In this document: one piece after another, positions 7,260 to 21,811 of the stretch
How the letters are laid out: the number at the start of each line of letters is the position of its first letter
Numbering within the stretch: the stretch's first letter is position 1
IMG/VR virus record: IMGVR_UViG_3300036985_006824
Span: 1-26,335 of that record
Length of the DNA: 26,335 bases
Source: a virus
Reading direction: 5' to 3' (one strand)
Made by a program: the position numbers and the translations under genes
The notes under the pieces: model-generated
Database searches by the model: none
Told to the model about the DNA's origin: nothing
What the model saw: only the letters and a program-made list of their open reading frames with translations

Positions 7260-8126
7260 TTATCTTCCGGCTGAAGGCCAAAGAAACGTGACGCCGATCG
7301 GCATACTCACCTCTTCAGCGTGACCGCAAGAAGGACACACAGTCTCCTGTTTCATTCGAATACCTGGCTCTTTGTCCTTGATGTAATTACGCAGTGCAAG
7401 TGAGTCTCGTGCAGGCATCATCCGGACGAAATTTGCGATCTTTGCGCGATCAGAGATTCCGTCGATTGAAACAATGCTATAAAGTAAATTCGTTGTTACT
7501 GCCGCGTCGGACTGAAGATTGAGCTTCTTTTGACGCTCTTGGGTTGCAAGGATCTCTTCCTCGTCACGACCGGTCATAAACTTGAAACGAACCGTCTTTT
7601 TGCAGAATGGAAGTAAGAACTCAAAGACGTTTGCTCCGGGTTCTGTTGGCTCAATTTCAAGACTCTGAATTGGTAGAGTTCCTAAGTTGAATTGTTGCGG
7701 TGCTTTTGTGTTACACTCGCCACACTCGATCTCGGCGTCATACTCTGCACCATAACCGGTGATTCGAATAGCAACCATGAGTGCGTTACGATCACCAGTC
7801 AATAGATCAATAGGATTCACTGACTTGTCAGTCAGACATGACTTGATTAACTCAGAGATAACTGTTCCCTTCTTCAAGAGTGCCCTTGATGTTAGGATAT
7901 CCTCTTCTCGAGCTGTCATCGCCTTAATCTCAACACGATCACGGCCATGAAGCGCGTGATCATTTGGATATACTTTTCCGCCAGACGGCAACGGCACGAT
8001 TTCGACTGGAATCTCTAAACCAAAGTCAGACTTGGCTTTATCGGCTGACGTAGTCGTCTGCATGCGTGGGTCTACACCGGGTGGTGGTGCAAAAACTTGG
8101 TTCTTCTGCTCTCGTTCTTCAGACAT
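7260..8126 (-). CDS. T4 gp26-like baseplate hub protein with zinc-binding cysteines
   Basis: The 288-residue protein matches the character of the T4 baseplate hub family (gp26-type). After a disordered N-terminus (about 1-37) come a beta segment ending LPSGGKVYP, the conserved region MTAREEDILTSRALLKKGTV (about 70-89), a CxxC pair at Cys135/Cys138 (ECGECN), a long middle with MTGRDEEEIL, and a second CxxC at Cys264/Cys267 (CPSCGH) that probably completes a zinc ribbon. In T4, gp26 belongs to the central hub assembly pathway of the baseplate. The ATG at 8126 is preceded by GAGGAG at ideal spacing. The gene lies upstream of the tape measure gene. The last codons overlap a +1 frame that probably encodes a translational extension, making this resemble a chaperone pair. 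Confidence 0.8.
   Translation of the reverse strand: MSEEREQKNQVFAPPPGVDPRMQTTTSADKAKSDFGLEIPVEIVPLPSGGKVYPNDHALHGRDRVEIKAMTAREEDILTSRALLKKGTVISELIKSCLTDKSVNPIDLLTGDRNALMVAIRITGYGAEYDAEIECGECNTKAPQQFNLGTLPIQSLEIEPTEPGANVFEFLLPFCKKTVRFKFMTGRDEEEILATQERQKKLNLQSDAAVTTNLLYSIVSIDGISDRAKIANFVRMMPARDSLALRNYIKDKEPGIRMKQETVCPSCGHAEEVSMPIGVTFLWPSAGR
7281..7289 (-). promoter_or_regulatory. Candidate +1 translational frameshift site
   Basis: The minus strand reads ACG TTT CTT TGG in the gp26-like frame. Skipping the C after TTT gives V-T-F-F-G-L-Q-P in the +1 frame, which stays open to 7013, whereas the zero frame stops at 7260. A small hairpin (GCTC-ATATTA-GAGC, about 7238-7251) lies roughly 30 nt downstream. 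The exact slip codon cannot be fixed from sequence alone. Confidence 0.4.
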
Positions 8127-8198: not shown

Positions 8199-8504
8199 TT
8201 AAGTGCGTTTTGACAATATCGTATAACTTGGGCGCTTTCGAACAGCGTAAATCGCCGCTAAAGCCTTTGAAACGTCACCAAATCCAACACGACCAGATTG
8301 CCATTGTTTGATAACGCGAGCTAACTGCGACAACAGGAGTTTATGACTTGTTGGAAGCTGCATATCAATTTTTGACAAAACGCGTGAAATCGCTTCTTGG
8401 TCAAACTGCGATGACTGAACTAATGCTTCTGTTTTTTCTAAGTCAGGAAGTTCAGCTAGACCTTCCTTGATAATCTCACGTAGCTCTTGGATCGTTAGTC
8501 TCAC
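8199..8504 (-). CDS. Small protein opening with the QLR/ELR-IIKE module (101 aa)
   Basis: I place the start at GTG 8504, 20 nt after the previous gene's stop, because it gives the N-terminus MRLTIQELREIIKEGLAEL, the same module that opens several other proteins here. A longer reading back to 8582 would overlap the upstream gene and begin with an unlike, Cys/Arg-rich stretch. A weak AGG lies 3 nt before the GTG. The remaining sequence is helical and ends in a basic tail (IYAVRKRPSYTILSKRT). No known domain was recognised. If the N-terminal module is a capsid-targeting peptide, the product would be a small internal virion protein; that is inference. Confidence 0.7.
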   Translation of the reverse strand: MRLTIQELREIIKEGLAELPDLEKTEALVQSSQFDQEAISRVLSKIDMQLPTSHKLLLSQLARVIKQWQSGRVGFGDVSKALAAIYAVRKRPSYTILSKRT

Positions 8505-8524
8505 TGACCTAACTATGGAGCACC

Positions 8525-8755
8525 TTACGCCAGACCAAAAGCGACACTGGGCGATTTTCGAAGCGAATCTAATCGATCCCACCTCTCATCTAACAGTGTT
8601 AAATAATCAAACTCATCATACCCTAATGATGACAACAATGAATTCCATTCAACAACATATTCAATAGACGTCAACTCTTCATTAACGAGTTTTTGATCGA
8701 GAACGTCCTGCAACATCAAAAGATGTTCGAACGAAAGGCGTTGTTTGACAACCAC
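8525..8755 (-). CDS. Small acidic helical protein (76 aa)
   Basis: The GTG start at 8755 lies 1 nt after the upstream TGA and is preceded by AAGGA about 6 nt away, a good ribosome binding site. The protein (MVVKQRLSFEHLLMLQDVLD at its start) is helical, acidic and lacks Cys and membrane segments. It belongs to a run of three tightly packed small genes (9032-8199), so co-translation is likely. I recognise no family. A structural adaptor or assembly factor would fit the surroundings, but nothing in the sequence proves it. Confidence 0.7.
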   Translation of the reverse strand: MVVKQRLSFEHLLMLQDVLDQKLVNEELTSIEYVVEWNSLLSSLGYDEFDYLTLLDERWDRLDSLRKSPSVAFGLA

Positions 8756-8756
8756 C

Positions 8757-9032
8757 TCACGTCCTTATATCTGCTGTCAATGGACACGAAATCGCTGCAT
8801 ACACAATTGAAGCTATTTCAACTTGCAAACCGCGCTTCTCAACATCAGAAAGCACTCGCAATCGACCTTCTTCAATCAAGACGTCACAAGCTGCCTGGGC
8901 CATGGCTAAAGAACACCCTGCTTCAACTGCAAGATATCCGAGATACATCGGTTGGTTAATCCTCTGACAGTGAGCAACGATCTTTTCTAGGACCGCCTGA
9001 GAGGGTTTAAAAGAGATCAAGCGACCGTCCAA
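8757..9032 (-). CDS. Small winged-helix-like protein (91 aa)
   Basis: The frame opens at TTG 9032 immediately after an in-frame TGA, without a clear ribosome binding site, so the exact start is uncertain. The pattern from residue 12 onward (AVLEKIVAHCQRINQPMYLG, then AVEAGCSLAMAQAACDVLIE and EGRLRVLSD) has the helix-turn-helix-wing spacing of small winged-helix domains. Three Cys are scattered and not paired. It could bind DNA or simply use this fold in virion assembly. The next gene starts 1 nt after its stop. Confidence 0.65.
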   Translation of the reverse strand: MDGRLISFKPSQAVLEKIVAHCQRINQPMYLGYLAVEAGCSLAMAQAACDVLIEEGRLRVLSDVEKRGLQVEIASIVYAAISCPLTADIRT

Positions 9033-9061
9033 TCAGATGACAAAACGTAAAATGCTCTTTA

Positions 9062-9089
9062 ATCATATTCTAGACATACACTGTCTTAA
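9062..9089 (-). promoter_or_regulatory. Possible sigma70-like promoter before the 9032 gene
   Basis: On the minus strand TTAAGA (9089-9084) and TATGAT (9067-9062) are separated by 16 nt, a partial match to the -35/-10 consensus. The implied start of transcription is about 23 nt before the TTG at 9032. The region 9033-9135 otherwise holds no gene or hairpin terminator. Confidence 0.25.
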
Positions 9090-9135
9090 CGACCGGTTAC
9101 ACTAAAACTCATTAACATATGACATCTTTTTAACG

Positions 9136-9738
9136 TTAACGTGGTGCCTGTTGACGAGCTTCAGCAAGGATCGCCTCGAGTACTTCGCCGTACCAACAAT
9201 TCACACTCTTCGGGAACGGCCACATCCAACCGTATGCTGCGCTTGTGAAGTGTGAAACGATACGTTCGCGCAGAGCATCTGAACGCATTGCCTTTTCGCC
9301 TTTGAGCTCGAGCGTTGCTCGAAGCGTCTCTGTATAAGCCTCCCACTCCATTCTTGCACGAAAATAAGCAAGACCAAATGGTAATGGCGCTAGCAAATAG
9401 AGAATGGTCATCCCAAACAAAGTGTATCGTTGTCGCTGACGAAGGTGAACGCGTTCGTGTCTGAGGGTGATTGTCGCAGTAACAGGATCACGATCTTCAA
9501 AACCTAGCGGGGTATACAACGTATTACCAATGACTGTGCTGTACCTCGTCATGAACTCGCGTTGACCGCCAAACGTAATGATCTTAAGAGCGATATCAAT
9601 GACCTTTGCGAAATTGCTCTCGGCTTTCTTCACAACACGGAACGAAGGGAATTCCTGTTGGATTTCCTTAATGAACAAGTCGCGAATATTTTGATCACTT
9701 TCACTCATTCGTTCGAACCTAACTTCGTTAAAACTCAT
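9136..9738 (-). CDS. Putative HExxH zinc metalloprotease with a membrane-like helix
   Basis: I choose ATG 9738 because it overlaps the preceding mini-gene's stop (TGATG), giving a 200-residue protein. Residues 94-98 read HERVH, the HExxH zinc-binding/catalytic signature, followed by a hydrophobic segment (about 109-125, GMTILYLLAPLPFGLAYF) and an EWEAY motif (Glu131/Glu133) that could supply the third zinc ligand, as in many gluzincin-type peptidases. The N-terminal 60 residues are helical and the C-terminus is aromatic-rich (AAYGWMWPFPKSVNCWYGEV). A protease in a virion gene cluster could act in virion maturation, host entry or lysis; the sequence does not decide. It does not resemble the serine-type T4 gp21 prohead protease. 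A second possible start is the internal MSESDQ at residue 11. Confidence 0.65.
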   Translation of the reverse strand: MSFNEVRFERMSESDQNIRDLFIKEIQQEFPSFRVVKKAESNFAKVIDIALKIITFGGQREFMTRYSTVIGNTLYTPLGFEDRDPVTATITLRHERVHLRQRQRYTLFGMTILYLLAPLPFGLAYFRARMEWEAYTETLRATLELKGEKAMRSDALRERIVSHFTSAAYGWMWPFPKSVNCWYGEVLEAILAEARQQAPR

Positions 9739-9824
9739 CAACGTGCGACGTAAACTGTCACTTCACCTTCGAAACCAATCGCCTCATTGACCATCTCACG
9801 AAGTTCTTTAACTTTGATTTTCAT
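9738..9824 (-). CDS. 28-codon mini-gene consisting mostly of the MK..ELR module
   Basis: ATG 9824 overlaps the stop of the upstream gene (TAATG), and the TGA at 9738 overlaps the next ATG (TGATG). AAGGA lies 9 nt before the start. The predicted peptide, MKIKVKELREMVNEAIGFEG followed by EVTVYVAR, is almost nothing but the module found at the start of several neighbours. The coupled arrangement on both sides argues for real translation. It could be a remnant of a larger module protein that lost its C-terminal domain, or a free peptide. Confidence 0.55.
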   Translation of the reverse strand: MKIKVKELREMVNEAIGFEGEVTVYVAR

Positions 9825-10654
9825 TATCGTGATCCTTGTGGCATCCAAGCTTTGCCGGTTTCTGGATCCCAGCGCAGGCTTATGTTGTTATCTGATGACC
9901 TTGCTGAAATGCGACCATCACCACCTGCAGTGAACTGAATCGTTGAATCATCGATCATGTCCTGGACAAAAACGTTGAAAGCTTCTTTGTCAAATGCCTG
10001 AAGATCGTGGAGGGTTCCAATACGCTGGTTTGAACGAGGCCGAGGCGCTTCTTTAAGAGCCGCCGATTTTGTTAGCTCTTCTTTGATGATTGAACGGAGT
10101 TGTGATTGTCGAAGTTTCATGTGACGATTACTTTCAGAAATAACGGGTTTCAACGTGTCAAGCATTTCTTTCGATGATTCATAATCATCGATCGTGATGT
10201 CGTTAGCAAAATTCTGTAATGCTTCTTTAGTACCGATGACTTTAAAGTTACCACTACGAAGTTTTTTAATCTCGCCGTTCATGATGCCCACATCATCAAT
10301 GATGAATTCATAACTCTTATTGACCAACATCGTAAACTTTGGTGCCGATGGAACTGGGCTGCGAGCTGAATGTTTTTTCTTCGAAAGTTTATTGTATGAA
10401 TCCGAATATGGCGGATCCATCGTATTCAACATTTTCTTATATTCACGAGGATGCTCACCGAATTTGGTAAGATCATCTAAAAATAACTCTAAGACGCCGT
10501 CATTGTGACTTGAAACTTTAAAATCGCCATTTGATAACTTCTCAATCTTGACTTTATGCGGAGCAAGTATAAAATGAGATTTAGGATTTTTTATCGCAAA
10601 AGCCCACTGTTTGTCAACTATAACTGAAACTGAATGCTCTTGCGTTTTGGACAT
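9824..10654 (-). CDS. Modular protein: duplicated domain + QLRSIIKEEL module + variable tail (276 aa)
   Basis: Two diverged copies of a domain of about 70 residues occupy positions about 7-82 and 106-174. Each has a beta-rich core with an I(E/K)KL.(N/S)G.FKV segment and ends MLNTMDPP or MLDTLKP. Residues 171-194 read VISESNRHMKLRQSQLRSII then KEEL. The C-terminal 80 residues form an unrelated small domain (DDSTIQFTAGGDGRISARSS). The downstream neighbour at 11511 has the same plan with a different tail. Met179 (codon at 10120) is exactly where free-standing module proteins would begin, so an N-terminal domain pair seems to have been fused in front of a module gene. The ATG at 10654 has no Shine-Dalgarno sequence and sits just after TATATAAT. 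Function is unknown; an injected or internal virion protein is my inference. Confidence 0.75.
   Translation of the reverse strand: MSKTQEHSVSVIVDKQWAFAIKNPKSHFILAPHKVKIEKLSNGDFKVSSHNDGVLELFLDDLTKFGEHPREYKKMLNTMDPPYSDSYNKLSKKKHSARSPVPSAPKFTMLVNKSYEFIIDDVGIMNGEIKKLRSGNFKVIGTKEALQNFANDITIDDYESSKEMLDTLKPVISESNRHMKLRQSQLRSIIKEELTKSAALKEAPRPRSNQRIGTLHDLQAFDKEAFNVFVQDMIDDSTIQFTAGGDGRISARSSDNNISLRWDPETGKAWMPQGSR
10118..10167. repeat. 50-bp module-boundary repeat, copy 1 (partner 10981-11030)
   Basis: The stretch matches 10981-11030 with a single mismatch (C at 10154, T at 11017). It encodes the end of the second domain copy and the Met that opens the QLR module (TLKPVISESNRHM). Flanking parts of the two genes are much more diverged, so this block looks recently exchanged. 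Confidence 0.8.
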
Positions 10655-10675
10655 ATCATTATATATTCGGGTGCG
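10652..10675. repeat. 24-bp start-region repeat, copy 1 (partner 11509-11532)
   Basis: The plus-strand sequence catatcattatatattcggg and the following four bases are identical at 11509-11532. On the minus strand this contains TATATAAT followed by GATATG, where ATG is the start codon of each paralogue. It marks the tandem duplication of the two genes with their start regions. Confidence 0.8.
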
Positions 10676-10683
10676 TGATTAAC

Positions 10684-11511
10684 TCATAGATCAGGCATTT
10701 GCTTCATGACTACTTCGAGCCCTTTTATCATTGTTTGTAAACCTTCAATGTCTTGCAAATGAAGAATAGTGTACTTGATTAAATGATCTTTTTCCTCGTC
10801 GCCAGTTAGAAACCTTTGACAAATTTGTATAACTTTTTTCTTTTTAGCGGCAATATCTTTGAGATCATACGCAAGTCTTCGAACATCAAGAATTTCACCT
10901 TCTGCTTTAGTGACTTCATTCAAGGTCTTTCTTGTGAGTTCTTCTTTGATGATTAAACGGAGTTGTGATGTGTTGATCTGCATGTGACGATTACTTTCAG
11001 AAATAACGGGTTTCAATGTGTCAAGCATTTTTTGTGAAGAAGACTGATCACCAATCGTGATGTCATCTGCAAAGCTCTCTAAAGCACTCTCTTCACCAGT
11101 GACTAGAAAACTTCCACGAGGACCTTTCACAATCTTGATACCATAATTTGCTTCTTGATCTTCAATTTCATCTTCGAACGCGAAAGCATAATGTTTGCCA
11201 ACACGCATCGTGAACTTCTCTGCTGGGCGTGATTTTTTCAGTGGAGTTTCCGATCGAGTATTATCTAACGATGCCGGCGGATCCATTGTATCGAGAACTT
11301 TAAGCATCTCATCAGAAGTTATTTCTCCTTCTTCAACGAGATCTCGTACAAGTTTTTTTAGTGACGATTCAAGGCCATAAACCTTGATATCGCCGCGTGG
11401 TGACTTCTCAATCTTAATGCCATAAGCCATTGGCCAATTAGTTTTAAGATCGATCATATAAGAAGCGCACTTCGCTGGCAAAGTAATTGAACGCTCTTGT
11501 GCTTTTGGCAT
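10684..11511 (-). CDS. Modular protein paralogue: duplicated domain + QLRLIIKEEL module + different tail (275 aa)
   Basis: Paralogue of the 10654 gene. Two domain copies lie at about residues 6-80 and 99-171 (each containing GIKI.K.PRG followed by a DIKV or SFLV strand, ending KVLDTMDPP or MLDTLKP), then SESNRHMQINTSQLRLIIKE with EL (module at 182-192). The last 80 residues are a helical, Lys-rich domain (AKKKKVIQICQRFLTGDEEK) with no similarity to the tail of its neighbour. The two genes share a 24-bp start region and a 50-bp block at the domain/module boundary. ATG 11511 is preceded by TATATAATGAT rather than a ribosome binding site. The plan of constant front, short module and exchanged tail recalls polymorphic secreted effectors, but no toxic activity is recognisable. 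Confidence 0.75.
   Translation of the reverse strand: MPKAQERSITLPAKCASYMIDLKTNWPMAYGIKIEKSPRGDIKVYGLESSLKKLVRDLVEEGEITSDEMLKVLDTMDPPASLDNTRSETPLKKSRPAEKFTMRVGKHYAFAFEDEIEDQEANYGIKIVKGPRGSFLVTGEESALESFADDITIGDQSSSQKMLDTLKPVISESNRHMQINTSQLRLIIKEELTRKTLNEVTKAEGEILDVRRLAYDLKDIAAKKKKVIQICQRFLTGDEEKDHLIKYTILHLQDIEGLQTMIKGLEVVMKQMPDL
10981..11030. repeat. 50-bp module-boundary repeat, copy 2 (partner 10118-10167)
   Basis: Second copy of the near-identical block in which the duplicated-domain region joins the QLR module in the two paralogues; one mismatch in 50 positions. Confidence 0.8.
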
Positions 11512-11532
11512 ATCATTATATATTCGGGTGCG
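11509..11532. repeat. 24-bp start-region repeat, copy 2 (partner 10652-10675)
   Basis: Exact 24-bp match to 10652-10675, covering the start codon and the TATATAAT element upstream of the 11511 gene. Confidence 0.8.
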
Positions 11533-11611
11533 GGATCAATTCGTATACGGAATTGCCACAGCCCCATAGTTGAACAACAGTGATTGAACGGAGTTGTGAT
11601 GTGTCTTTAAT
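11516..11611 (-). pseudogene. Decayed module gene joined to a repeat-encoded C-terminus
   Basis: A 31-codon frame reads IKDTSQLRSIT directly followed by VVQLWGCGNSVYELIPHPNI and TAA. The front matches the QLR module, and 23 nt (ACATCACAACTCCGTT... on the minus strand) match the module region of the neighbouring gene near 10955-10978. The position where ATG is expected is ATT (11611-11609), so there is no normal start. The end carries the 44-bp repeat also found upstream of the ADP-ribosyltransferase-like gene. It overlaps the last codon of that gene. I interpret it as the product of a deletion joining a module start to the tail of another gene. Expression from ATT is possible but unlikely. 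Confidence 0.5.
11535..11578. repeat. 44-bp direct repeat, left copy (partner 12424-12467)
   Basis: Aligns to 12424-12467 with two mismatches; the core gccacagccccatagttgaa is identical. The two copies are 889 bp apart and bracket the 11607-12401 gene. Both copies encode VVQLWGCGNSVYE on the minus strand. Confidence 0.85.
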
Positions 11612-12401
11612 TCTTAACCGGTTTCATATCGATTAATTTTTCAACGACTTGAAAAGAATCATTTGTGAGAAAACATATTTGTGGAATTTCATATTCAATC
11701 AAAACGTATGGATCAATAATAGCATCGTACTTTTGCCCAAGTAGATATTGTTGTGTTTCCACATGACCTTTTATCGCAGCCATTGATTTCACTGTATTCC
11801 AAGATTTCTTGTTAAGAACAAGCGGATTCTTAAAGTTACATTTCAAAATGTAACCATGCTTCGTTGTTACTGCGATATCTTCAAAATAAATGCCCATCCC
11901 CTTATCATCATTACCAATTAACATTTGATAAACATCTTTAGTGAATACAAAAGCATATACACCGTTAGGCATCTGATGGTGATTTCCAATACGTTCAGCA
12001 TTTGGTAATGAGGATGGATTTTCAACAAATCTAATCGCATATTTGGGATCGAATGGATCTGACACATATTGATGAAAATGTTTTGTCAAATTAAGATCTA
12101 CGACAGCAACGGGTTTTTGTGTCAATTCAAAAATTGGTACATATTGAATCTTATTAGATTGATTTTGTATGATGTATGCATACCATTTGGATGGTATTAT
12201 TGTTCCGCGACGACGATCAGTTTTCTCTGATTCTGCAGAATCAAGTGCGTCGTTTTTATTTGAAGCAGACGAACCCCACATTACTTCATATGTTTCACCG
12301 TCTCGAGACCAAATAACGTCATCACGTACTTTAATTTGATGTTTGCCGACCTCAATAGATTCAATTAACAACGCACGTAATTTGCCTATTGTGATCTTCA
12401 T
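11607..12401 (-). CDS. Putative ADP-ribosyltransferase-like protein with N-terminal QLR-type module (264 aa)
   Basis: The N-terminus, MKITIGKLRALLIESIEVGK, is a variant of the module found in neighbouring genes. The C-terminal half resembles ADP-ribosyltransferase folds seen in phage and polyvalent proteins: NGVYAFVF (146-153), GIYFEDIAV (170-178), a beta strand plus NP (YILKCNFKNPLVL, 184-196), KYDAIID (224-230), and a final IEYEIPQICFL..FQVVEKL (235-256) in which Glu236/Glu238 could be the catalytic glutamate. T4 Alt is a precedent for an ADP-ribosyltransferase carried in the capsid and injected to modify host RNA polymerase. This protein is much shorter, and a clear N-terminal Arg/His-Gly motif is not obvious, so the assignment is tentative. 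No ribosome binding site precedes ATG 12401. The gene is bracketed by 44-bp direct repeats, suggesting cassette insertion or duplication. Confidence 0.55.
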   Translation of the reverse strand: MKITIGKLRALLIESIEVGKHQIKVRDDVIWSRDGETYEVMWGSSASNKNDALDSAESEKTDRRRGTIIPSKWYAYIIQNQSNKIQYVPIFELTQKPVAVVDLNLTKHFHQYVSDPFDPKYAIRFVENPSSLPNAERIGNHHQMPNGVYAFVFTKDVYQMLIGNDDKGMGIYFEDIAVTTKHGYILKCNFKNPLVLNKKSWNTVKSMAAIKGHVETQQYLLGQKYDAIIDPYVLIEYEIPQICFLTNDSFQVVEKLIDMKPVKN

Positions 12402-12413
12402 ACAATTAAATAA

Positions 12414-12545
12414 CTACGTTGACATCATTTCGTATACGGAGTTGCCACAGCCCCATAGTTGAACAACGCCTCGCTCTAAAGCTGCCTGTGCTTGTGTTAA
12501 CCCGAGTGCTTTATTCGTTCGTAAGCCATGATAAAATGTATCACG
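12414..12545 (-). pseudogene. C-terminal gene remnant carrying the right copy of the 44-bp repeat
   Basis: A 43-codon frame without a start codon reads RDTFYHGLRTNKALGLTQAQ, then AALERGVVQLWGCGNSVYEM and MST, ending at TAG 12414. It is closed upstream by TAA at 12546. The VVQLWGCGNSVYE segment is the same as in the 11516-11611 remnant. It looks like the tail end of a gene whose front has been lost. It could instead be a frame that is open by chance, but the protein-level match of both copies in the same frame argues against that. Confidence 0.4.
12424..12467. repeat. 44-bp direct repeat, right copy (partner 11535-11578)
   Basis: Right copy of the repeat bracketing the ADP-ribosyltransferase-like gene, two mismatches to the left copy. 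It lies 23 bp upstream of that gene's start codon. Confidence 0.85.
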
Positions 12546-12610
12546 TTAAACGAAGTTGTTTAACTCAGAATGAACTTAACATCAAGGCAATTTCTAACCA
12601 TTCAATGGAG

Positions 12611-12639
12611 TAAAAACACAAACGGCCCATAAAGGGCCG
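12611..12639 (-). terminator. Rho-independent terminator after the tail tube gene
   Basis: On the minus strand CGGCCC-TTTAT-GGGCCG is followed by TTTGTGTTTTTA, a 6-bp GC stem with a T-rich tail, 25 nt past the tube stop codon. A 9-bp outer inverted repeat (AACCATTCA at 12596-12604, TGAATGGTT at 12642-12650) encloses it. Confidence 0.8.
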
Positions 12640-12663
12640 AATGAATGGTTTTGATCGTTGATC

Positions 12664-13152
12664 TCAGTACTGCAACACGGCGTTGTCATAACGCAGTGTT
12701 AGAGAAATCTCTGCTAGACCGCCATCTTCATACGTAAGCTCACCGAAGTTGGCTTCCGTGATGAAGGCACCTTTTACGTCCCAATACTCGACGACTGTTC
12801 CGACCGGATCTAAGAGTTTAAGCGCAATGTCCCTCTTGTAAAAGTCAGCATAGCCTGAACGACCAGACACTGACTCATAATGAAGGCGAACCCATTCCAT
12901 GACCTGTTGAGCACCAGATGGTGCGATTGGATCATGAAGTGTTACTGACATTGTGCTGAACTTGGTCGTATCAGCAAGATAGCGCCTCGTGTTGATAAAA
13001 GGCACTTCAATTTCACCCGTAGAAATAGTCGGACGTTGCGCAGTTTTCAGGATGTAAGCATCAATGCCTTCTATCATAAGAACCCAACGATTCTTGCGTT
13101 TAGGCTCGAACCGATTATTTAGCATACTAGTTACGTCTAATGTCTCTGCGAT
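12664..13152 (-). CDS. Tail tube protein, T4 gp19-like (probable ATC start)
   Basis: The protein has the gp19 tube signature: FEPKRKNRWVLMIEGIDAYI near the N-terminus, PTISTGEIEVPFINTRRYLA, HDPIAPSGAQQVMEWVRLHY and a beta-rich C-terminus ending DNAVLQY. Hexamers of this protein form the inner tube through which DNA passes. The first ATG (13125) has no ribosome binding site and gives 153 residues. Nine codons upstream, ATC 13152 lies 8 nt after a perfect AGGAGG (13166-13161) and gives a natural N-terminus, AETLDVTS before MLNNRF, for 162 residues. I therefore prefer the ATC start, or a G-to-C change of an original ATG. The ATG directly abutting AGGAGG encodes only MRQSQRH and is too close to be used well. 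A terminator follows. The gene is separated from the sheath genes by an inserted opposite-strand nuclease gene. Confidence 0.85.
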   Translation of the reverse strand: MAETLDVTSMLNNRFEPKRKNRWVLMIEGIDAYILKTAQRPTISTGEIEVPFINTRRYLADTTKFSTMSVTLHDPIAPSGAQQVMEWVRLHYESVSGRSGYADFYKRDIALKLLDPVGTVVEYWDVKGAFITEANFGELTYEDGGLAEISLTLRYDNAVLQY

Positions 13153-13160
13153 TGTCTCAT

Positions 13161-13166
13161 CCTCCT
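13161..13166 (-). promoter_or_regulatory. Strong ribosome binding site that decides the tube start
   Basis: AGGAGG on the minus strand lies 8 nt before ATC 13152 and 35 nt before ATG 13125, so it supports initiation at ATC. Confidence 0.6.
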
Positions 13167-13219
13167 GTAGCTTTGTTGAATTGCCTACTTGATGTAGGTA
13201 TACAGATTATTTTTTTTCT

Positions 13220-13248
13220 TTGTATTTCAAGCTACAAATTCGTATAAT
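13220..13248 (+). promoter_or_regulatory. Sigma70-like promoter for the homing endonuclease-like gene
   Basis: TTGTAT (13220-13225) and TATAAT (13243-13248) are separated by 17 nt. The -10 box ends 6 nt before the ATG at 13255, so transcription would start at or next to the start codon, giving a leaderless message. No ribosome binding site is present between them. Confidence 0.5.
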
Positions 13249-13254
13249 AGCAAG

Positions 13255-14505
13255 ATGGTTGATATCAACGATGAAAAGGTCAAACAAGGCCTTGCAAAAT
13301 TAAGCGCCAGTGTAAAGGCCGCATGCAATGAGCCTGCACTTAGAAAATACCTTGACGATAAAAAACGCCTACCGAAAGAGCGTTTGTTTGAGATGATTTC
13401 TAAATCAAAAGTTTGGTCAGTCGCAAATCTAGACGATTACAAACGCCTGACAACAAAAAATATTGAGGCAACGTGTTCTCATGGACACAGTGAGATCGTG
13501 TCTATTCAAAGTGTGATTGATGATAAACCTTGTCAGACATGTTCTCCGGGAAAACGCAAACGATCGTTCAAACCGTTTAAACAGTTCGTTAACGAACTAT
13601 TGGCAATTCGACGTGAAGACGAATTCATGTTTGATGAATCGACGTATAACAGCGTATCACGACCAATGTCGATTAAATGTGTCAAATGCAAGTTTGAATT
13701 TGAGAAGATGCCAAAACAATTAATCTATGAAAAAATTGGATGTCCCCGATGCGCGAACAAAGCAAAGGTGACTACGCAAAGAAAGTCATGGCATAGCTTT
13801 TTGAAACTAGCGAAAGAGCGACACGGCGATTCATTTGAATATTTCAAAAACGAAGATGATCGTTATGGAAACGCTGATTCGATCAAAAGACGTTGCAAGG
13901 GATGCGATGCAATTATAAAGCAATCGATACCTGATCATCTTTTTGGAAACGGATGCAAAACGTGTTCGAATAAGAGGAAACAAACTACTGAATCATTCAT
14001 CACGCTTTCTAAAGAAATCTGGGGAAAGAACGTTTATGATTACTCGCAAGTCGTATTCGTTAACAACAAAATGCCAGTAAAATTCACATGTAAAAACGGA
14101 CATGCATTTACAACCCAACCCTTGAACCACTTAGACATTGGCGGATGTCCAACATGCAATCACAAGAAGTTCAAGTGTATTGGCGAAACTGAGTGGTTAG
14201 ACTCACTAAAGATCCCTGAGAATTGTCGGAATGTTTGGATCAACGTTAATGGTCAAAAGCTAAATGTAAGCGGGCTTATCAATCAAACAATCTACGAATA
14301 TCATGGTGATTACTGGCGTGGTAATCTGGCACGATTCGCACCGAATCTCATCAACAATTTCAATGAGATGACAATGCAAGAACTTAACGATTACACGTTA
14401 GAAAAAGAAAAAGCATTACGAGATGCAGGATTCGTTGTGATTACCATGTGGGAGTCTAAGTGGATAGAACTACGAAAGACCCGACCTAAGGCTTTGTTGA
14501 CATAG
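13255..14505 (+). CDS. Zinc-ribbon repeat protein with C-terminal Vsr-like nuclease domain; probable free-standing homing endonuclease
   Basis: Encoded on the opposite strand to the structural genes. After a helical N-terminus (1-60), the 416-residue protein has successive treble-clef/zinc-ribbon units marked by paired cysteines: CSHGH..CQTC, CVKCKFEFE..CPRC, CKGCDAII..CKTC and CKNGHAFT..CPTC (about residues 70-305). The C-terminal domain contains EYHGDYWRGN (348-357) and, after YTLEKEKALRDAGF, MWESKW (398-403). This is the pattern of Vsr-related nucleases, including EDxHD-type homing endonucleases of phages. Such genes spread by cutting homing-site DNA in related genomes and commonly interrupt phage gene clusters. 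Its own promoter, its insertion between sheath and tube genes and its strand all fit a selfish insertion. It could alternatively act in exclusion of competing phages. Catalysis is not proven from sequence. Confidence 0.75.
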   Translation: MVDINDEKVKQGLAKLSASVKAACNEPALRKYLDDKKRLPKERLFEMISKSKVWSVANLDDYKRLTTKNIEATCSHGHSEIVSIQSVIDDKPCQTCSPGKRKRSFKPFKQFVNELLAIRREDEFMFDESTYNSVSRPMSIKCVKCKFEFEKMPKQLIYEKIGCPRCANKAKVTTQRKSWHSFLKLAKERHGDSFEYFKNEDDRYGNADSIKRRCKGCDAIIKQSIPDHLFGNGCKTCSNKRKQTTESFITLSKEIWGKNVYDYSQVVFVNNKMPVKFTCKNGHAFTTQPLNHLDIGGCPTCNHKKFKCIGETEWLDSLKIPENCRNVWINVNGQKLNVSGLINQTIYEYHGDYWRGNLARFAPNLINNFNEMTMQELNDYTLEKEKALRDAGFVVITMWESKWIELRKTRPKALLT

Positions 14506-14560
14506 ACCTATCACCAGACAATTCATCGATCAATAAACAACGGTCAACCTTTGAAACGAC

Positions 14561-14582
14561 AAAAGCACCCTAAACGGATGCT
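14561..14582 (-). terminator. Terminator after the 15070 gene
   Basis: The minus strand forms AGCATCC-GTTTA-GGGTGCT (7 bp with one T-G pair) followed by TTTT, 60 nt past the stop at 14642. The plus strand has no T tail, so it serves the minus-strand genes. Confidence 0.65.
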
Positions 14583-14641
14583 AATGAGGTTTGAAATTGG
14601 TGTTCACGTTAAGAACCGTCAGGAGAACCGCGAAGGCCTCA

Positions 14642-15070
14642 TCAGCGTACTACTGGTTTAAATGTCCAAGGCACGTCTTTATCGTTAAATGAAACTGGCT
14701 GCGAAACAATTCCAGGTGATTTTGTTGTTAAATCAACATCCTGATTTATATCTTCAACAACATTTGATATCAATTGATGAATTGAACTTCTTAAATCTTG
14801 ACTAGAAAGAACACTATCAACAGTTGCCTCGATAAGCGTATTTGCATTTTCAGGTGTCATCTCTTGAATGATCCCTTCATCTCTAACCATTACCATTAAA
14901 TCATCTTTATTATCGACGATAAAGTCACTCAAAAATGTAATGCAAAGATCTGAGAGTAATTGTGCACCAGCATTCTCTTTGATGATGCGCTTACCGGTTG
15001 ATCGTTTAACCTCTGTCGTAATGAGGCTACGCAGTTGAGATTCTGAGAGTTTAATTGCCTTGTTTTTCAT
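14642..15070 (-). CDS. Small module protein 2 of a tandem pair (142 aa)
   Basis: I choose ATG 15070, which gives MKNKAIKLSESQLRSLITTE, over an upstream TTG (15085) that has no ribosome binding site. The N-terminus is the QLR module. The rest is acidic and helical (for example FIVDNKDDLMVMVRDEGIIQ) and ends in a Pro-containing tail. It follows a similar gene (15411), and the DNA at its start (TCATCACATCATCTTTC on the plus strand) repeats the DNA at the end of that gene, suggesting tandem duplication. No known domain was recognised. A capsid-internal protein is possible if the module is a targeting peptide. Confidence 0.7.
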   Translation of the reverse strand: MKNKAIKLSESQLRSLITTEVKRSTGKRIIKENAGAQLLSDLCITFLSDFIVDNKDDLMVMVRDEGIIQEMTPENANTLIEATVDSVLSSQDLRSSIHQLISNVVEDINQDVDLTTKSPGIVSQPVSFNDKDVPWTFKPVVR

Positions 15071-15083
15071 CACATCATCTTTC
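15067..15083. repeat. 17-bp direct repeat, copy 1 (partner 15118-15134)
   Basis: TCATCACATCATCTTTC occurs here, over the start codon of the 15070 gene, and again at 15118-15134, over the stop codon of the 15411 gene; spacing 51 bp. Confidence 0.7.
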
Positions 15084-15117
15084 AAAGATTGTCCATAGCT
15101 GAGTTAACTAACTGTTC

Positions 15118-15134
15118 TCATCACATCATCTTTC
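15118..15134. repeat. 17-bp direct repeat, copy 2 (partner 15067-15083)
   Basis: Exact second copy, spanning the last codons and stop of the 15411 gene. Confidence 0.7.
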
Positions 15135-15411
15135 TGTACGCGCTCTTCAAAAGAGCTGTGATCGTTGACTGTAGAGAAGCCGTGATTTCTCGACTAGCGT
15201 GTTCGGCAAAATCATCGATATCTTCAATCCTAACCGGACGCTCGATGTTTGTATTTGAGAGTTGCCTTGCTATGCTGTCTCTATTTGCCATCAACACACC
15301 GCCGATGATCTTGCTCGTTTCATCTCCTACAACTGACGTCATTTCATCAAGTTGAATCGCTTCTTTGATCAATGAACGAAGTTGTTTGCTGTTGAGCTTA
15401 ACTGATTTCAT
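15121..15411 (-). CDS. Small module protein 1 of a tandem pair (96 aa)
   Basis: ATG 15411 is preceded by AAGGA about 8 nt upstream. The N-terminus MKSVKLNSKQLRSLIKEAIQ is a clear copy of the module. The rest is helical with an acidic middle (RIEDIDDFAEHASREITASL) and a basic end (LLKSAYRKMM). It sits between the terminator of the second sheath gene and its neighbour 15070, so it probably begins a separate transcription unit. No family is recognised. Confidence 0.75.
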   Translation of the reverse strand: MKSVKLNSKQLRSLIKEAIQLDEMTSVVGDETSKIIGGVLMANRDSIARQLSNTNIERPVRIEDIDDFAEHASREITASLQSTITALLKSAYRKMM

Positions 15412-15516: not shown

Positions 15517-18500
15517 TTACGGTGTACCGCTATTGCTTACAACGAAGTCAAGAGAAACAAACTCGATACTTCGTGTAGGTTGGATGAAGATTTTACCCCT
15601 AATCGTATTGTTATCAACGTCAGCTTGCGTCGTCGTTGAAGAATCAATGATGACCTTGAATTTCGTAACACCTGCTAGAGCCTGCACTCTTTGCAACCTA
15701 GGCGTAACTGCTGCAGAGAACCTGGAAAGAGTTGCCTCACGGTTCGGCTCGAAGATAATGGTTTGCGCGATGTCCCTGACCTGTCGCCTAATATCGATAA
15801 GCAAACGCCTAACGTTAACGCGATCAAGTGCTGAAGCCGCTGCTTGGATTGTCTTCTGACCCCAAACCACAACGCCACCTTTAGGATTTGTTCCGGATGT
15901 TGCAGTCCCAGGGAATGCAACAAGTGGATTGATGCTAACGTCATAAAGAGCATCCATGTTTGTCTTTGACAACTGGACCCTAGCTTCAAGTGTTGTTTGC
16001 AACGCACCGCGTGTCATTCCAGCCGGAGCGAACCAAGGATGGCCAACTGCATCGTTTAACGCCAAGGCACCAAGAACAACAACGGAAGGTGGAACGATAA
16101 CGTTCGTTTTCGTGTTTGGATCTGGCAATGCAACGTCTGGGAAGTATGCAGCAGCAAAGCTTGTATCTAATGCCCTATCACGGAAGTTGTTAACTGTTAA
16201 CGTGACCGAAGGAAGTTGGCTATCAGTTACAACGTTCTCGTCGTTGTTGTCTCTCTGTTCAATGTCCATTAAGAACAACGCATCAAAGCGTTCTTCAACT
16301 GCGTTGATCGCAGAATTGGTCACGATTGGGTGCCTGATACCAGGAATTGCCAATAGTTGAACATCTACGTTGACAACGTTCTTCATGATATCAAGCGCTT
16401 TGGTGTATGCCTTAACAGACGGACCATCTTGACGACCACGATTTGCGTCATTCATGTCTGCAACGACAGCATTATCATTAATCTCAGATTCATCCTTATC
16501 AAAGAGGTTGACACCGTCAAATCCGCCCTGCATAAAGAACGTGTACTTGAGGAATCGCCTATTGGCTTGGATGAAGTCGGACGCTGCGATGCGGCGGGTC
16601 TTTGCAGAATCATCCACGTTGATGTTTCCGTCGCGTACGTATGTTGCAGTATCCCATTTTGTTGAATCAGCTAGTCCAGTTGAACCAGTCATGATCTTGA
16701 GATTTTCAAGCGTGAATACATTCCTACAGAATTTATCAGAATCTAACTCACCGTTCTCTGCGGTTGCCGGCGTCCCAGCGTTATCACCAACAACGAAGTT
16801 CTGTTGAGTTTCTGAAAAATCTGGGTAGTATTTTGCAAAGCTAAGCAATGACTTATCCTGCAAAACGCTAGCATTTGGTGTCGTCAAACTTGTCACGTGT
16901 TCAAATCGCGTTCCCCAATAGAGCAACGGATTTACAGAAAGCTTAACGCCAGAACCTTGAGTAATGTTCTTTCGCAAAGGCAATGGCGCTTCGATAACTC
17001 TCTTTAGAACGTTAGAAGCACCAACAGATGACGTGATCTGTGATAATGACGATGAAACAACTGGGCTAGACAATGGCATTGTGCCAGACGTGATTAGATG
17101 TTGAATACCGCGAACGCCGAATGGCAATGCAGTAGCATCGACAGTTTCATTATCAACATCACCTGAAACCTCAACTCGAACTAAATTCGATCGATTTGGG
17201 TAGTTTCCATCGATGATTAACTTTTGTCCAGCCTCTGACTGATCAAAATTAAAGAATACGTGAGCATCGCCGATGACCTTTGCAATGTAACGATCTGAAT
17301 TTGGGTCAAGGTTCAAACCTCTCCACTGTTCAAGCGCGCGGATTGAGCTATCTTGATCATTCCAATCACGAATGATCAAGTCAAAGCTACCATAACGATT
17401 CGCTGGATCAGTTGAAGGTGAGATGTTTTCAATCGATAATTTGTAATTTGTGACAACATTAGCGCCGGCGTCAAGTGCATGCAATCTAAACAAATTCGTT
17501 GCAACACCACCGAAGCGCTGTGATATGACCCATGGTGAAAAACCATGTGCGTACCTATCAGTCCAAGCTTCGTAATTTGGAATAACTGAATTTCCAACGT
17601 TGCGAGCTAATGCTCCACTCGTTAAGAACGCAGCTGATTCAGCTCCTACGCGAGGTGCAGTTGAAGCGCCAGAACCTGATAGAATCGAAACTAATCCAGA
17701 ACCTGTCACTGTTGCTGTTGACGGGTGAATATCCCAATGTGAGTACAGGTAATGACCTGCCTGTTGGACTTTCAAAGGATCCTTATTCAAAACGTTCGCA
17801 AAATAATTTGGAGACGTCATGTCAAACGAAGCAGTAATCACGTTTGGATAAAGTGGATCAGTTCCTTGATGACCATTAAGCAAAAGAACGAAGTCTTGCT
17901 TGGCGACTAAACCATCCATTAACACGACTGCCCCAATTGCCTGTCCTTGTGAACTCTGTTCAGTTGCCAAAAGGTTACTAACTGGTGCCGACGACGAAGT
18001 AACCGATGAAGACAGGCGGAGAATGACACCCGAAGGGGCCATCATAATTCCGCGAATGATTGGAACAGCAGTATTAACACCAGGCGTGATACTTCCCTGA
18101 CCTTGTAATCCAGCCTCGGAAAACACTGTCGAGCCGGCTGACTCTGACATGAAGGCCCCGAGGAAGAACGTTCGTCCTGCAACGCTATTACTTCCTGATA
18201 CAGCGTATGGATTTCCAAACAAAGTACCATCGCCAGATCGAGGTTGGTTTTCGCCAACTGTAAATCCAGCACTCGTTACAGATCCATCCTCTGCACGGCG
18301 CTTACCATCACCAACTCCAAGTACACGAAGGTACGTTACTGCGCCGGCGTTTCGAAGCCACTCAGTGACTGCTAAAGGCCCAAACTTCTTTCCGTCAGTA
18401 AGACCAAACTTAGCGTAAAAGTCGCTAAGTAAACCAACAGTCACTGGGACGAATGCCGGCCCTTGTTTTGCGGTGCCAATAACACCTGCTGGGATCCCAA

Positions 18501-18579
18501 CGGGTTCCTGTGCGACCGGACCAGAAAGGTCAATTTCCTTTGCTGAAACCCCTGCGCTTCCGAATTTTAGCTGTGCCAA
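15517..18579 (-). CDS. Tail sheath protein, T4 gp18-like, paralogue 2 (TTG start)
   Basis: The 1020-residue protein has the hallmarks of contractile tail sheaths. N-terminal VSAKEIDLSGP and IPAGVIGTAKQGPAFVPVTV are followed by a large insertion region and GGFDGVNLFDKDE (about 685). The conserved C-terminal domain contains HPWFAPAGMTRGALQT, NPLVAFPG, VVWGQKTIQAAASALDRVNV and RRLLIDIRRQV, and ends in beta strands used for subunit interlocking (RSIEFVSLDFVVSNSGTP). The start is TTG 18579, set by AGGAGAA 6 nt upstream. It is a diverged copy of the gene just upstream (21717) and far longer than T4 gp18 (659 residues), so it probably carries extra surface domains. It is bounded by terminators on both sides, consistent with independent high expression. 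Confidence 0.9.
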   Translation of the reverse strand: MAQLKFGSAGVSAKEIDLSGPVAQEPVGIPAGVIGTAKQGPAFVPVTVGLLSDFYAKFGLTDGKKFGPLAVTEWLRNAGAVTYLRVLGVGDGKRRAEDGSVTSAGFTVGENQPRSGDGTLFGNPYAVSGSNSVAGRTFFLGAFMSESAGSTVFSEAGLQGQGSITPGVNTAVPIIRGIMMAPSGVILRLSSSVTSSSAPVSNLLATEQSSQGQAIGAVVLMDGLVAKQDFVLLLNGHQGTDPLYPNVITASFDMTSPNYFANVLNKDPLKVQQAGHYLYSHWDIHPSTATVTGSGLVSILSGSGASTAPRVGAESAAFLTSGALARNVGNSVIPNYEAWTDRYAHGFSPWVISQRFGGVATNLFRLHALDAGANVVTNYKLSIENISPSTDPANRYGSFDLIIRDWNDQDSSIRALEQWRGLNLDPNSDRYIAKVIGDAHVFFNFDQSEAGQKLIIDGNYPNRSNLVRVEVSGDVDNETVDATALPFGVRGIQHLITSGTMPLSSPVVSSSLSQITSSVGASNVLKRVIEAPLPLRKNITQGSGVKLSVNPLLYWGTRFEHVTSLTTPNASVLQDKSLLSFAKYYPDFSETQQNFVVGDNAGTPATAENGELDSDKFCRNVFTLENLKIMTGSTGLADSTKWDTATYVRDGNINVDDSAKTRRIAASDFIQANRRFLKYTFFMQGGFDGVNLFDKDESEINDNAVVADMNDANRGRQDGPSVKAYTKALDIMKNVVNVDVQLLAIPGIRHPIVTNSAINAVEERFDALFLMDIEQRDNNDENVVTDSQLPSVTLTVNNFRDRALDTSFAAAYFPDVALPDPNTKTNVIVPPSVVVLGALALNDAVGHPWFAPAGMTRGALQTTLEARVQLSKTNMDALYDVSINPLVAFPGTATSGTNPKGGVVVWGQKTIQAAASALDRVNVRRLLIDIRRQVRDIAQTIIFEPNREATLSRFSAAVTPRLQRVQALAGVTKFKVIIDSSTTTQADVDNNTIRGKIFIQPTRSIEFVSLDFVVSNSGTP

Positions 18580-18708: not shown

Positions 18709-21700
18709 TCAGACGAATTCTACGCCTGATGCTGTGATTATGAAATCAAGCGCAATGAATTCGATTGTCTTTGTTGGAACAATGACGATACGACCGTTAA
18801 GCTTGTTCAAATCAATATCTTCTTGTGTATTGTTCGTTTCGTTACATACAACCTCAAACCGCTCAATACCTGACTGGGCTTGAATCAAACCCAATTGTTG
18901 CACACTATCGGAAACGAACTTATTGCGAACGGCAAGTGTATTGTTTTCAAAGACCATTAGGTTTGCGATTCCAATGATGATCCTTTTAACCTCTAACAAT
19001 AGCCTTCTAACGTTAACACGATCCAATGATGATTTTGCGATTTGAAGCGTCTTCTGCCCATAGATCACATAACCTAATTTAGGAAATGTTGCGATTGGGT
19101 TAATTCTTGAATCATAAAGACGGTCGCGATCAGTTACGTTTAGACGAACTTCAACGTTTGTCACGAAATCAAGTGCAGCTCTATTGAATCCTGCCGGAGC
19201 AAACCAAGGATATGATACTCGGTCGTTATAGGCTAATGCACCCATTGCTGCGACTGAACTTGGAACCTTAAGTCGACGCTTGTTTGAAAGATCATCAATG
19301 AATACGTTTGGAAAGTAACAACCAGTGAAGTTGTTATCAACCGCCCGAGCGTCCAAAGCTGATGCAGATTTATCAACGTCTGGTCGAGTGACCGAATCAT
19401 CATACAACCGCGTTGCTTCATCATCGTAAGAAGCAATGTCCATGACATAAAATGCTAGACCATAATCACGAACATTTTTCATTGTATAGTCAGTAATGAA
19501 CGATTCCCTAATGCCTGGGATGTTCAAAATGTTAATGTTAACAACCATTGGATCTGTCATGATGTCGACCGCGGTCAAATATGACAAAACTGTTGAGTTA
19601 CTCTGACCAGTACCATTTGGATTTACCAACATTCCCGGAGCAACATAACTCAATTCAGCGCCACCGCCGGCATCGAACGACGTTGATCGATCATTCAACC
19701 TTCTGGCATTGTTGTCAAGAAAGTTAACGCCGTCATAACCACCGAACATCATGTTCGTGAATTTCGTGAAAGACGAAAACTTATTGAAGTTTGCAGCAGT
19801 ATCCTGTGCCAACATTGTAGCTAGTGTGATTCGCTTTCCGATCGAAGTGTTGACTGTGTAGTCTGACAAATCTAACGTTGCATTTCTGATGTATGCAGCT
19901 TCACGCATATGATCATTGATCGTACCGGTGAGGTGCGTGATGCTTGTGTTCGAAAATGCAACCTTTGCCAAAGTGAACTTATTGTTATTGAAAGTATCAG
20001 CGCCAGAACCGGTAACAAGAACATCAAGTTTCTTGATACCCATGAACTTTGTATACGATTCTAAGAGCTTGTTCTTTTCTGAGGAAAGATTTGCGTTAAG
20101 TGGAGTTGTATTTCTCTCAAACTTCACACCCCAGTGAAGCTGAGTGTTCGCTAATTCAGTCGGACCTGGTGCTCCATCAAACGCTGGTGCTGCCGGAATT
20201 TCGCCTTTGGTCACCTTGAATCTAAATGGAACTGGCGGGAGAATCGAACCTGACACTGCAGACCCAGAGCTAATGCCTAAAACACCAACAAGACGTGGTG
20301 TAGTTGAACCAGTGTCAGTGAAAGAATTGTTCGTCTTAAGAACTTCAATACCTCGGAAACCGAATGGCAGAGATTTTGCCGGGACCAAAGCACGTTCAAC
20401 AGCATCAGACATAGTCACGCGAACTAGCTTTGAATTGTTCGCATATTTTCCAGTTGCAATAACTCGTCGTTCAGTCGTCAACGATGAATCAAAGTTGTAA
20501 TAAACTTTTCGATCGCCGATTAACTTTGCAACGTAATTTCCTGCTAATGGATTCAAAGAACAATTTGGAAACGATTCTAAGACTAATGGATTTTGATCAG
20601 TATCATTCCAATCCCTGATATGAACAGTGAATGTTCCATGTGGTTTTGAATCGTCTAATGACGCTTTAATGTTTGTGATAGAGATCTTGTAAAGTTTGTT
20701 TGCAAACTCACCATCATCTAAAGCTTCGAGTGAGAACAAGTCATATTCCGTCGCACCGAATGGTTGCGAGATGAACATCGTAGTCTTTGGGGTTTGATAA
20801 CGTGTATCAAACGCACCAAAAGCCTGACGCATGATCAACGTTGAATCACCTGAAGTGTTGCTAGTAGCCGTTGAACCTGAAAGAATTGCAACAACAGTAG
20901 GTGTTGCAATCTCATCGTCTACTGCAAAGTCACCATAAAGAACATGTTGTTCCTGTACGAAACGATCCGGATCAGTGTTCAACACCTTAGCGAAATAGTC
21001 AGCATCTGTTGGATTTAGAGACGCCGTGAAAACACGAACACCAGGATTTCCATCAGTGTTAACGAATCCATTACCTAATGTTGAAGAGATAACAAGTTTA
21101 AACTTTCCATTCACCAACGTTGCAAGGTCATCTGGACCGGTCGCTGTAAAAGCTCCAACTGCTGATTCATTTCCATCAAGAACCATCATTCGCGAACCTG
21201 ATGCCATGAACACCATGCCACGAACGAGGTTAGCAAACCCGCCTGAGAAGCTATTGTTGTCTGTAAACATCGGATTACCAGATGCTTCAGCAGTTTGCAA
21301 CATGTGTCGAGCTGTGATGAATTGAACGGCGCCGTTATGACGACCACGATTATCGTGGCTAGCAACTGTTCCATCTAATCTAAATCCGGCGTTCTTTACG
21401 CGGCCGGTTTGAACTGTCGTTGCAATTTCTGCATCTGTGCTATTTGCACCCGCGCCAAGAACGCGAATGAATGTTAGTGCGGCTTTGTGTTTAAGAAATT
21501 CATTGACAGCGTATGGACCAAATCGTTTTGGATCTAGATCACCAAACGTTGCCTTAAATTCATCAAAATTAGCAATCGTGACTGGCACGAAAGCTGGACC
21601 TTTATTCGCTGTGCTGATAACGCCAGCGGGCGTTCCAACAGGACCCCTAGTCTGAGGTGCAGATAAATCGATCTCTCGTTCAAAAAAATTCGGTGACCTA

Positions 21701-21717: not shown

Positions 21718-21811
21718 TACCGTGCTCCTAAGCGCATATTGCGTTAGCAATAACTATCCGGCGCGTAGATGAAAACTCGAGCGATCAGCGGCAAGTAAGT
21801 ATCGTGTTAGA

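Follow-up and report, generated by a model that had tools for sequence, protein, structure and literature searches.

What does a short peptide do when it heads, or interrupts, one small gene after another among the tail genes of a phage? The question is raised by 26,335 nucleotides of the IMG/VR virus record IMGVR_UViG_3300036985_006824 (positions 1 to 26,335; this whole stretch is called the window below); this 26 kb piece of a phage with a contractile tail encodes a tail tube, two tail sheaths and a baseplate hub. The first-pass annotation of the window had pointed out the peptide and read it as a candidate capsid-targeting and processing signal, by analogy with the internal proteins of phage T4. 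We found that the module recurs as an N-terminal tag in uncultured phages, with the consensus MKITK.QLR.IIKEE[LI]. Judging from these comparisons, we consider it likely that the tag is an amphipathic N-terminal helix by which large phages with contractile tails and a T4-type head load proteins into the capsid, and that it doubles as a propeptide. The data fit a lineage-specific loading signal that may work like that of T4 although the two sequences do not match.

The head gene cluster, where the tag is also present, gives the most telling evidence. A small gene lying between the prohead protease and the scaffold starts with the tag in nine of ten genomes, and with a weak form of it in the tenth; the tag is followed by a sequence such as ECLVEILSEG, and in five genomes a second small tagged gene comes next. 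When 19 orthologues of this head-cluster protein were aligned, some of them only 16% identical to the first, the only invariant residues were L10, K15, E20, E24 and W143. In every one of the 19, E24 is the last residue of an [LI]xE; G comes next in 13 of them, E in 4, and A or D in the remaining two, one each. AlphaFold predicted a helix at residues 7-27 (mean predicted local distance difference test score, pLDDT, of 76 for residues 1-10, 91 for 11-20 and 65 for 21-30), and those head-cluster genes that were compared with PHROGs had no match below 0.01. A similar site occurs in the capsid protein itself. In 30 gp23-type proteins, including one from the untagged phage Mel-JY01, the propeptide boundary reads L[KR]E in 28 and IKE and ISE in the other two, and the next residue is A, S, Q, T or V. 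We infer that this boundary is the capsid cut, because of its position and because of the precedent of T4, in which gp21 cuts after L/I-X-E and takes 65 residues off gp23 (PMC9026906). At the sequence level, the head-cluster protein and about half of the other tagged proteins were shown to carry, at the end of the tag, an [LI]xE resembling that of the capsid propeptide. A weak PF07068 match (G035:174556) was considered as a copied propeptide and rejected.

The tag is carried by many different proteins. We collected 466 tagged frames (counted as start-defined entries in 460 frames, six of which hold two), and their bodies, the parts behind the tag, fell into 348 families, 294 of them singletons. 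Comparison of these frames showed that hundreds of dissimilar bodies share a conserved tag, which also stands on the gene between prohead protease and scaffold; within a single phage, otherwise unlike proteins have this short N-terminal peptide in common. The search of related phages that the first-pass annotation had proposed was thus borne out at the N-termini of proteins across phages. Among viral contigs, at least 120 stretches fit the DNA pattern for M-K-x-xxx-Q-L-R-x-[IL]-I-[KR]-E; an off-frame control pattern with two bases missing found none. The annotation had also raised the commonness of the motif outside virions, and here the motif proved rare: 257 Gb of bacterial and archaeal genomes gave 21 stretches in 14 genomes. 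A T4-type protease was present in 3 of these 14. The motif frames in two isolate genomes are only 23 and 9 residues long, those of three further matches 14 to 33 residues, and one match in a Lachnospiraceae metagenome-assembled genome (MAG; L294) lies in a frame of 113 residues. Multi-copy cellular matches lie on MAG contigs such as NHDW01000006.1 and PBIO01000025.1 (L300, L303, L307), with protease and capsid genes in the same MAGs, and these contigs are probably misbinned (jumbo) phages. A tblastn search of 50,697 phage records with consensus peptides of 22 and 23 residues found, at E up to 10, only the uncultured LR756508.1; weaker or divergent copies would escape it. A literature search found papers on the tags of T4, P1 and SPN3US and none on the tag peptide strings or on this tag, which does not prove that no such paper exists.

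Single genomes carry the tag in large numbers. Using a profile whose training loci took in portions of both G001 and G005, and neither the window nor G037 (a member of its clade), we found 31 matches at a score of at least 8 and 29 at 10 or more in G005 (273 kb), and 15 and 13, respectively, in G001 (190 kb); the reversed sequences gave none. Among 80 loci related to the window through the tail tube, which are shorter pieces around that gene, 26 held 48 matches at a score of at least 10, again with none in the reversed sequence. When all gene starts of a genome were compared with one another blindly, independently of the motif, 40 genes were linked in G005, 21 in G001 and 15 in G037. The shuffled controls, one shuffle per genome, gave groups of at most 2, and up to 12 members were inspected per group. 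In G076, which has the protease and no tag, the same comparison gave two groups of 5, by inspection one GIY-YIG-like and one of membrane segments. It is barely credible that these numbers stem from chance, or from a mobile DNA cassette that settles at gene starts and encodes a peptide without function. Adjacent tagged genes are directly neighbouring in 205 of 300 pairs, as they would be after tandem duplication; but the peptide is kept while its codons differ, among the matches listed, and controls with reversed or shuffled sequence give nothing or almost nothing.

The anatomy of the tag was examined in 241 copies with dissimilar bodies, in which positions 1-16 read MKITKRQLRRIIKEE[LI]. Conservation is high over positions 1-16 and near background from about residue 23. 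Because the 241 copies were drawn from loci found with the motif, positions 2, 3, 7-9 and 11-14 were partly selected by the search; T4 (threonine, 78%) and E15 (63%) were not selected by it. An [LI]xE lies at positions 18-25 in 118 of the 241, against a permuted mean of 34.6 (standard deviation 5.3, maximum 55, 2,000 permutations); the reversed order gave 19, and windows at 26-33 and 34-41 gave 15 and 21. Among all 466 entries, 257 have an [LI]xE at positions 18-27; in an equally wide stretch further downstream, 51 of 458 do. A, G, Q and S are the commonest residues after its E. As far as sequence can tell, the tag often ends in the prohead protease site L/I-X-E. An inner I-x-E is found at 12-14 in 96% of the 241 copies, at a position partly selected by the search.

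We also found that the T4 gp21-type prohead protease (PF03420) is present in the long relatives of the window, where the first-pass annotation had suggested looking for a gp21-like enzyme. PF03420 was detected in 19 of a first 36 records. A further 18 motif records included 11 with it, and the 16 longest among the 80 tube relatives included 9. When only tag-bearing records of at least 100 kb were counted (15 first reached via the motif and 6 via the tail tube, with G036 matched by both), it was present in 20 of 21, and the lone exception, G009 (135 kb), had neither a PF03420 nor a gp23 match. A neutral set, comprising the 20 records of at least 100 kb among 80 matches listed of the 120 pulled by a tRNA pattern, had PF03420 in 10 and the tag in none; the difference in protease gives a Fisher p of 0.0014 with relatedness ignored. 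All six window relatives of at least 97 kb have PF03420, and five of them show the tag by a loose pattern; in the sixth, G040, the head-cluster gene is identical to that of G037 and its form of the tag was missed by the pattern. A gp23-type capsid protein was found in 18 of 21 and in 11 of 11 records searched; in the relatives, protease and capsid protein of T4 type are both encoded. Two neighbouring gp23-type capsid genes were seen in each of G002 and G004 (L269, L277, L270, L278).

The bodies behind the tag, here called cargo, were scanned for domains in the 150 longest of the 348 family representatives. At a threshold of 0.01, at least 118 of the 150 had no Pfam match; 31 families were matched and, of the 25 shown, one has two members and the others one. 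The matches include a CCA-adding enzyme/poly(A) polymerase head, a polynucleotide kinase-like AAA_33, an RNA-repair HAD domain, a tRNA ligase phosphodiesterase, RNase T, L,D-transpeptidase, LysM, PAP2 and HNH. PADLOC, run on the same 150, matched four families with one member each, the best being a DEDDh exonuclease (1.2e-7), and for a tagged protein of 467 residues (L097) no match was found in phages. The tagged CCA-adding tRNA nucleotidyltransferase aligns with phage homologues from residue 28 and the polynucleotide kinase from residue 21, and the homologues' own starts in Brevundimonas phage Bambus and Ruegeria phage RpAliso lie no more than three codons from where the alignment begins. Judged by these alignments, the tag of both enzymes is an extra piece ahead of a complete enzyme. 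Bodies like the nucleotidyltransferase, the kinase, the HAD domain and the exonuclease would also suit a tag that localizes proteins within the infected cell, to a replication compartment, a membrane or a host protein (RNA polymerase, for instance), with no role in the virion. We regard this as improbable, since it leaves unexplained the tagged head-cluster gene with its invariant [LI]xE and the like site in the capsid protein.

It is also conceivable, if unlikely, that the tag drives assembly and that the cargo stays in the head as core or scaffold accessories. In favor of this, tagged genes adjoin the scaffold, and the proteins at the scaffold position end like RWAxLAG and the first tagged head gene like KWAxLAF. 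Hundreds of dissimilar and often lineage-specific bodies, enzymes among them, fit delivery better. One tagged cargo (L173 5518-6315) likewise ends in RWQRLAGIVK, and these ends may possibly represent a shared C-terminal capsid-binding motif.

If the tag is a loading signal, its helix would dock proteins in the core of the prohead, and the prohead protease would cut after the [LI]xE, at the end of the helix or after the inner I-x-E. The propeptide would then be lost, and the mature cargo would leave the head with the DNA and do its work at an early stage of infection, tRNA repair being one example; its roles may lie in counter-defence or in RNA repair. In that case one could read from the first 16 to 25 residues which of the many uncharacterized proteins of large uncultured phages enter the host with the DNA, and sequence alone would supply hundreds of candidates for counter-defence and takeover; phages may pre-load tRNA-repair enzymes, and a new loading signal would be available to test.

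The closest known counterparts are the signals of the T4 internal proteins IPI, IPII and IPIII and the Alt propeptide, which are cut by gp21. The internal-protein propeptides are described in PMC9026906 as having 10-19 residues and targeting the core, and the T4 head is reported to carry the ADP-ribosyltransferase Alt and anti-restriction proteins (PMC9026906; PMC12373910). Both systems have a short N-terminal tag starting with MK on unlike proteins and ending in [LI]xE, together with a T4-type protease, a gp23-like capsid protein and a diverse, changing cargo, known here from sequences. The present tag differs in its longer helix, in its number (about 30 tagged genes in one genome against a few in T4), in its occurrence on a head-cluster gene and as internal second copies, and in having repair enzymes as cargo. 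For phage P1, PMC9024508 reports that N-terminal residues of DarB suffice to bring a reporter to the head; that signal, which we liken to the tag by description only, is described for DarB, in a phage said to be without a separate scaffold system. In SPN3US-type phages, head and ejection proteins carry N-terminal propeptides cut by the prohead protease gp245, as described in PMC10052503, at the motif A-X-E, and no common short tag is apparent from that account.

Within the window, six-frame searches confirmed seven modules, all on the minus strand, at 8504, 9824, 10120, 10983, 12401, about 15067 and 15402/15411. The genes concerned and their neighbours are as follows.

7260..8126, minus strand: baseplate hub protein (phrog_150), context
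8199..8504, minus strand: tagged gene, 101 residues from a GTG start (VRLTIQELREIIKEGLAE), with no homologue among the loci compared
9136..9738, minus strand: gene directly behind the tag-only frame below, untagged in its own frame, with one homologue (L059)
9738..9824, minus strand: open reading frame of 28 codons, almost only tag (MKIKVKELREMVNEAI...), whose stop overlaps the ATG of gene 9136..9738
9824..10654, minus strand: gene of 276 residues with an internal tag at 10120 (MKLRQSQLRSIIKEEL...LKE|A), VISE|SNRH before the tag
10684..11511, minus strand: gene of 275 residues with an internal tag at 10983 (MQINTSQLRLIIKEEL...LNE|V), VISE|SNRH before the tag
11607..12401, minus strand: tagged gene, 264 residues (MKITIGKLRALLIE|S...), module confirmed at 12401
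12664..13125, minus strand: tail tube protein, the anchor for finding relatives (80 kept, 79-84% identity)
14642..15085, minus strand: tagged gene, 147 residues (KLSESQLRSLITTEV...IIKE|N), TTG start, between sheath and tube
15121..15411, minus strand: tagged gene, 96 residues (KLNSKQLRSLIKEAIQLDE|M), between sheath and tube
15517..18579, minus strand: tail sheath protein, context

A six-frame profile scan of the window returned eight profile windows at a score of at least 8, namely the seven modules and one at 15010, within gene 14642-15085 and 39 bases beyond that gene's module; 30 first-order Markov sequences gave a mean of 0.37 and a maximum of 2. The module had been reported at eight places, of which these seven stand. 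The supposed decayed copy at 11611 is absent, since none of the nine places in the whole window that score at least 2 lies there. The module at 8504 begins at a GTG (VRLTIQELREIIKEGL), and its open frame starts further up, at 8582. What had been called a gene at 9824 does hold the module, but it is the 28-codon frame, whose TGA shares bases with the ATG of gene 9136-9738 (TGATG); coupling, a frameshift and an assembly error are possible explanations of the overlap. The proteins had been described as otherwise unrelated. This does not hold for the 10654 and 11511 genes, paralogues with 42% identity over residues 1-196 (E 2e-35), nor for the 15085 and 15411 proteins, which are weakly alike (22% over 100 residues, E 7e-4; all E-values computed for the set of seven proteins).

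The two paralogues are alike up to the module and diverge just past it. Both internal modules are preceded by the identical VISE|SNRH, itself an I-x-E site. Internal second copies of the tag occur in 17 of the 466 entries, and such genes, including these two, may encode one polypeptide with two cargoes that the protease would separate. Six tagged window genes had no homologue in any locus compared, against 3, 10 and 1 homologues for three untagged neighbours in the same loci, which are parts of the relatives' genomes.

The position of these genes raises the alternative that the helix docks proteins on the tail or baseplate, and that the tagged proteins are tail accessories held in the tube or baseplate. 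In the window and several of its tube relatives, tagged genes lie on either side of the tail tube gene, in the gap between sheath and tube and downstream, and such a role would account for that. In G005 and G001, however, the tagged genes are spread over several clusters, one of those in G005 lies directly behind the capsid gene, the conserved tagged genes sit in the head cluster, and the [LI]xE end resembles the capsid propeptide. We therefore judge tail docking to be distinctly unlikely.

Several observations weigh against a capsid-loading tag. The tagged genes of the window sit among tail genes, and the window's own record, being a fragment, has no protease match. The protease occurs without the tag in the 10 protease-bearing neutral records and in Mel-JY01, immuto and RM378, so the protease is not sufficient for the tag. 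No tag was visible in 54 of the 80 tube-relative loci in the DNA compared, and 209 of the 466 tagged frames (45%) have no [LI]xE at 18-27. A loose regular expression for the tag matched 3 genes of the control G076 (shuffled maximum 2), in which the profile matched none. The cargo bodies are basic in only 22% of 458, unlike the small basic bodies of T4. Nor does the tag match the T4 signals in sequence: ungapped scoring against the tag profile gave -38 to -43 for the three T4 internal proteins. In a comparison of G002 with 104 kb (a third) of its relative G004, cargo homologues were retained for 15 of 25 genes at 49% identity, head genes for 18 of 18 at 78% and other genes for 62 of 93 at 71%. 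The cargo is more diverged, as shown by 49% against 71% identity and by 15/25 against 62/93 genes kept, yet it is not wholly variable. Set against these points, the capsid-targeting proposal of the first-pass annotation gains support from the protease association, the tagged head-cluster gene, the [LI]xE ends of the tags and the enzyme homologues that start at the tag end; its T4 analogy would hold for the targeting and not for the signal sequence.

Other tags of the same kind were found. Eight genes of G005 match a second pattern typified by MKNLRQYIRKIL.ES (0 expected from shuffles), and six genes of G001 match one typified by MKKLLTEWRQFLKES (0.14 expected), a start that, by reading, resembles the T4 signal at its cut (aromatic, F, [IL], x, E). 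Relatives of one such protein led to the cultured Alishewanella phage Slicko01, in which seven linked genes within 12 kb start with MKI[DE].LYES...; the eight tags of this phage end in [LI]xE|[SGA]. One of these proteins has an ADP-ribosyltransferase domain from residue 19 (PF18760, E 2e-11). Slicko01 also has PF03420 and gp23, with a capsid propeptide site ISE|S. Its cluster (MKI[DE].LYES[LM][LI].E) is thus like the present tag in placing an N-terminal tag with an [LI]xE|[SGA] end on different bodies beside PF03420 and gp23, and unlike it in sequence; the proteins are annotated as hypothetical, and the cluster was recognized in this analysis. With an analogous tag cluster in a cultured phage, the loading idea would be directly testable. 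We can offer only tentatively, and with more doubt than confidence, the broader view that large T4-headed phages use a general loading code, in which several unrelated tag types with the same protease site stand side by side in one genome and load up to about a tenth of the gene set, tRNA-repair enzymes and ADP-ribosyltransferases included, for injection, some of it as tandem polyproteins cut apart by the prohead protease.

In OQ508956.1 139259-141377 (L522) of Slicko01, the label DNA polymerase I stands on the gp23-type protein, and that of major head precursor on a scaffold-like gene in the same stretch; the annotation looks shifted. In the cultured Microcystis phage Mel-JY01 (60276-62718, L506), three genes start with MIKL.SL..E..SDRVWH.T, another small shared start.

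Some further features of the window were noted. The 12401 protein had no family match below 0.05 and no relative in PDB sequences or viral contigs. Motifs like those of ADP-ribosyltransferases had made it a candidate for that family, an assignment that Pfam, PHROGs, PDB sequences and viral contigs did not support and that is not claimed here; an AlphaFold model made without an alignment (mean pLDDT 29) gave it no support either. The 9136-9738 protein weakly matches phrog_13834 (E 0.0036), and a HERVH stretch makes it a possible metallopeptidase. The long gene in the window is taken for the tape measure, judged by its size and place. Two tail sheath genes stand in tandem (15517-18579 and 18709-21750), each encoding about 1,000 residues, approximately twice the general sheath profile phrog_23 (496) and near the length of longer sheath profiles. 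On the plus strand, opposite to the surrounding tail genes, 13255-14505 encodes an HNH endonuclease-like protein with a treble-clef zinc-finger match, probably a homing endonuclease.

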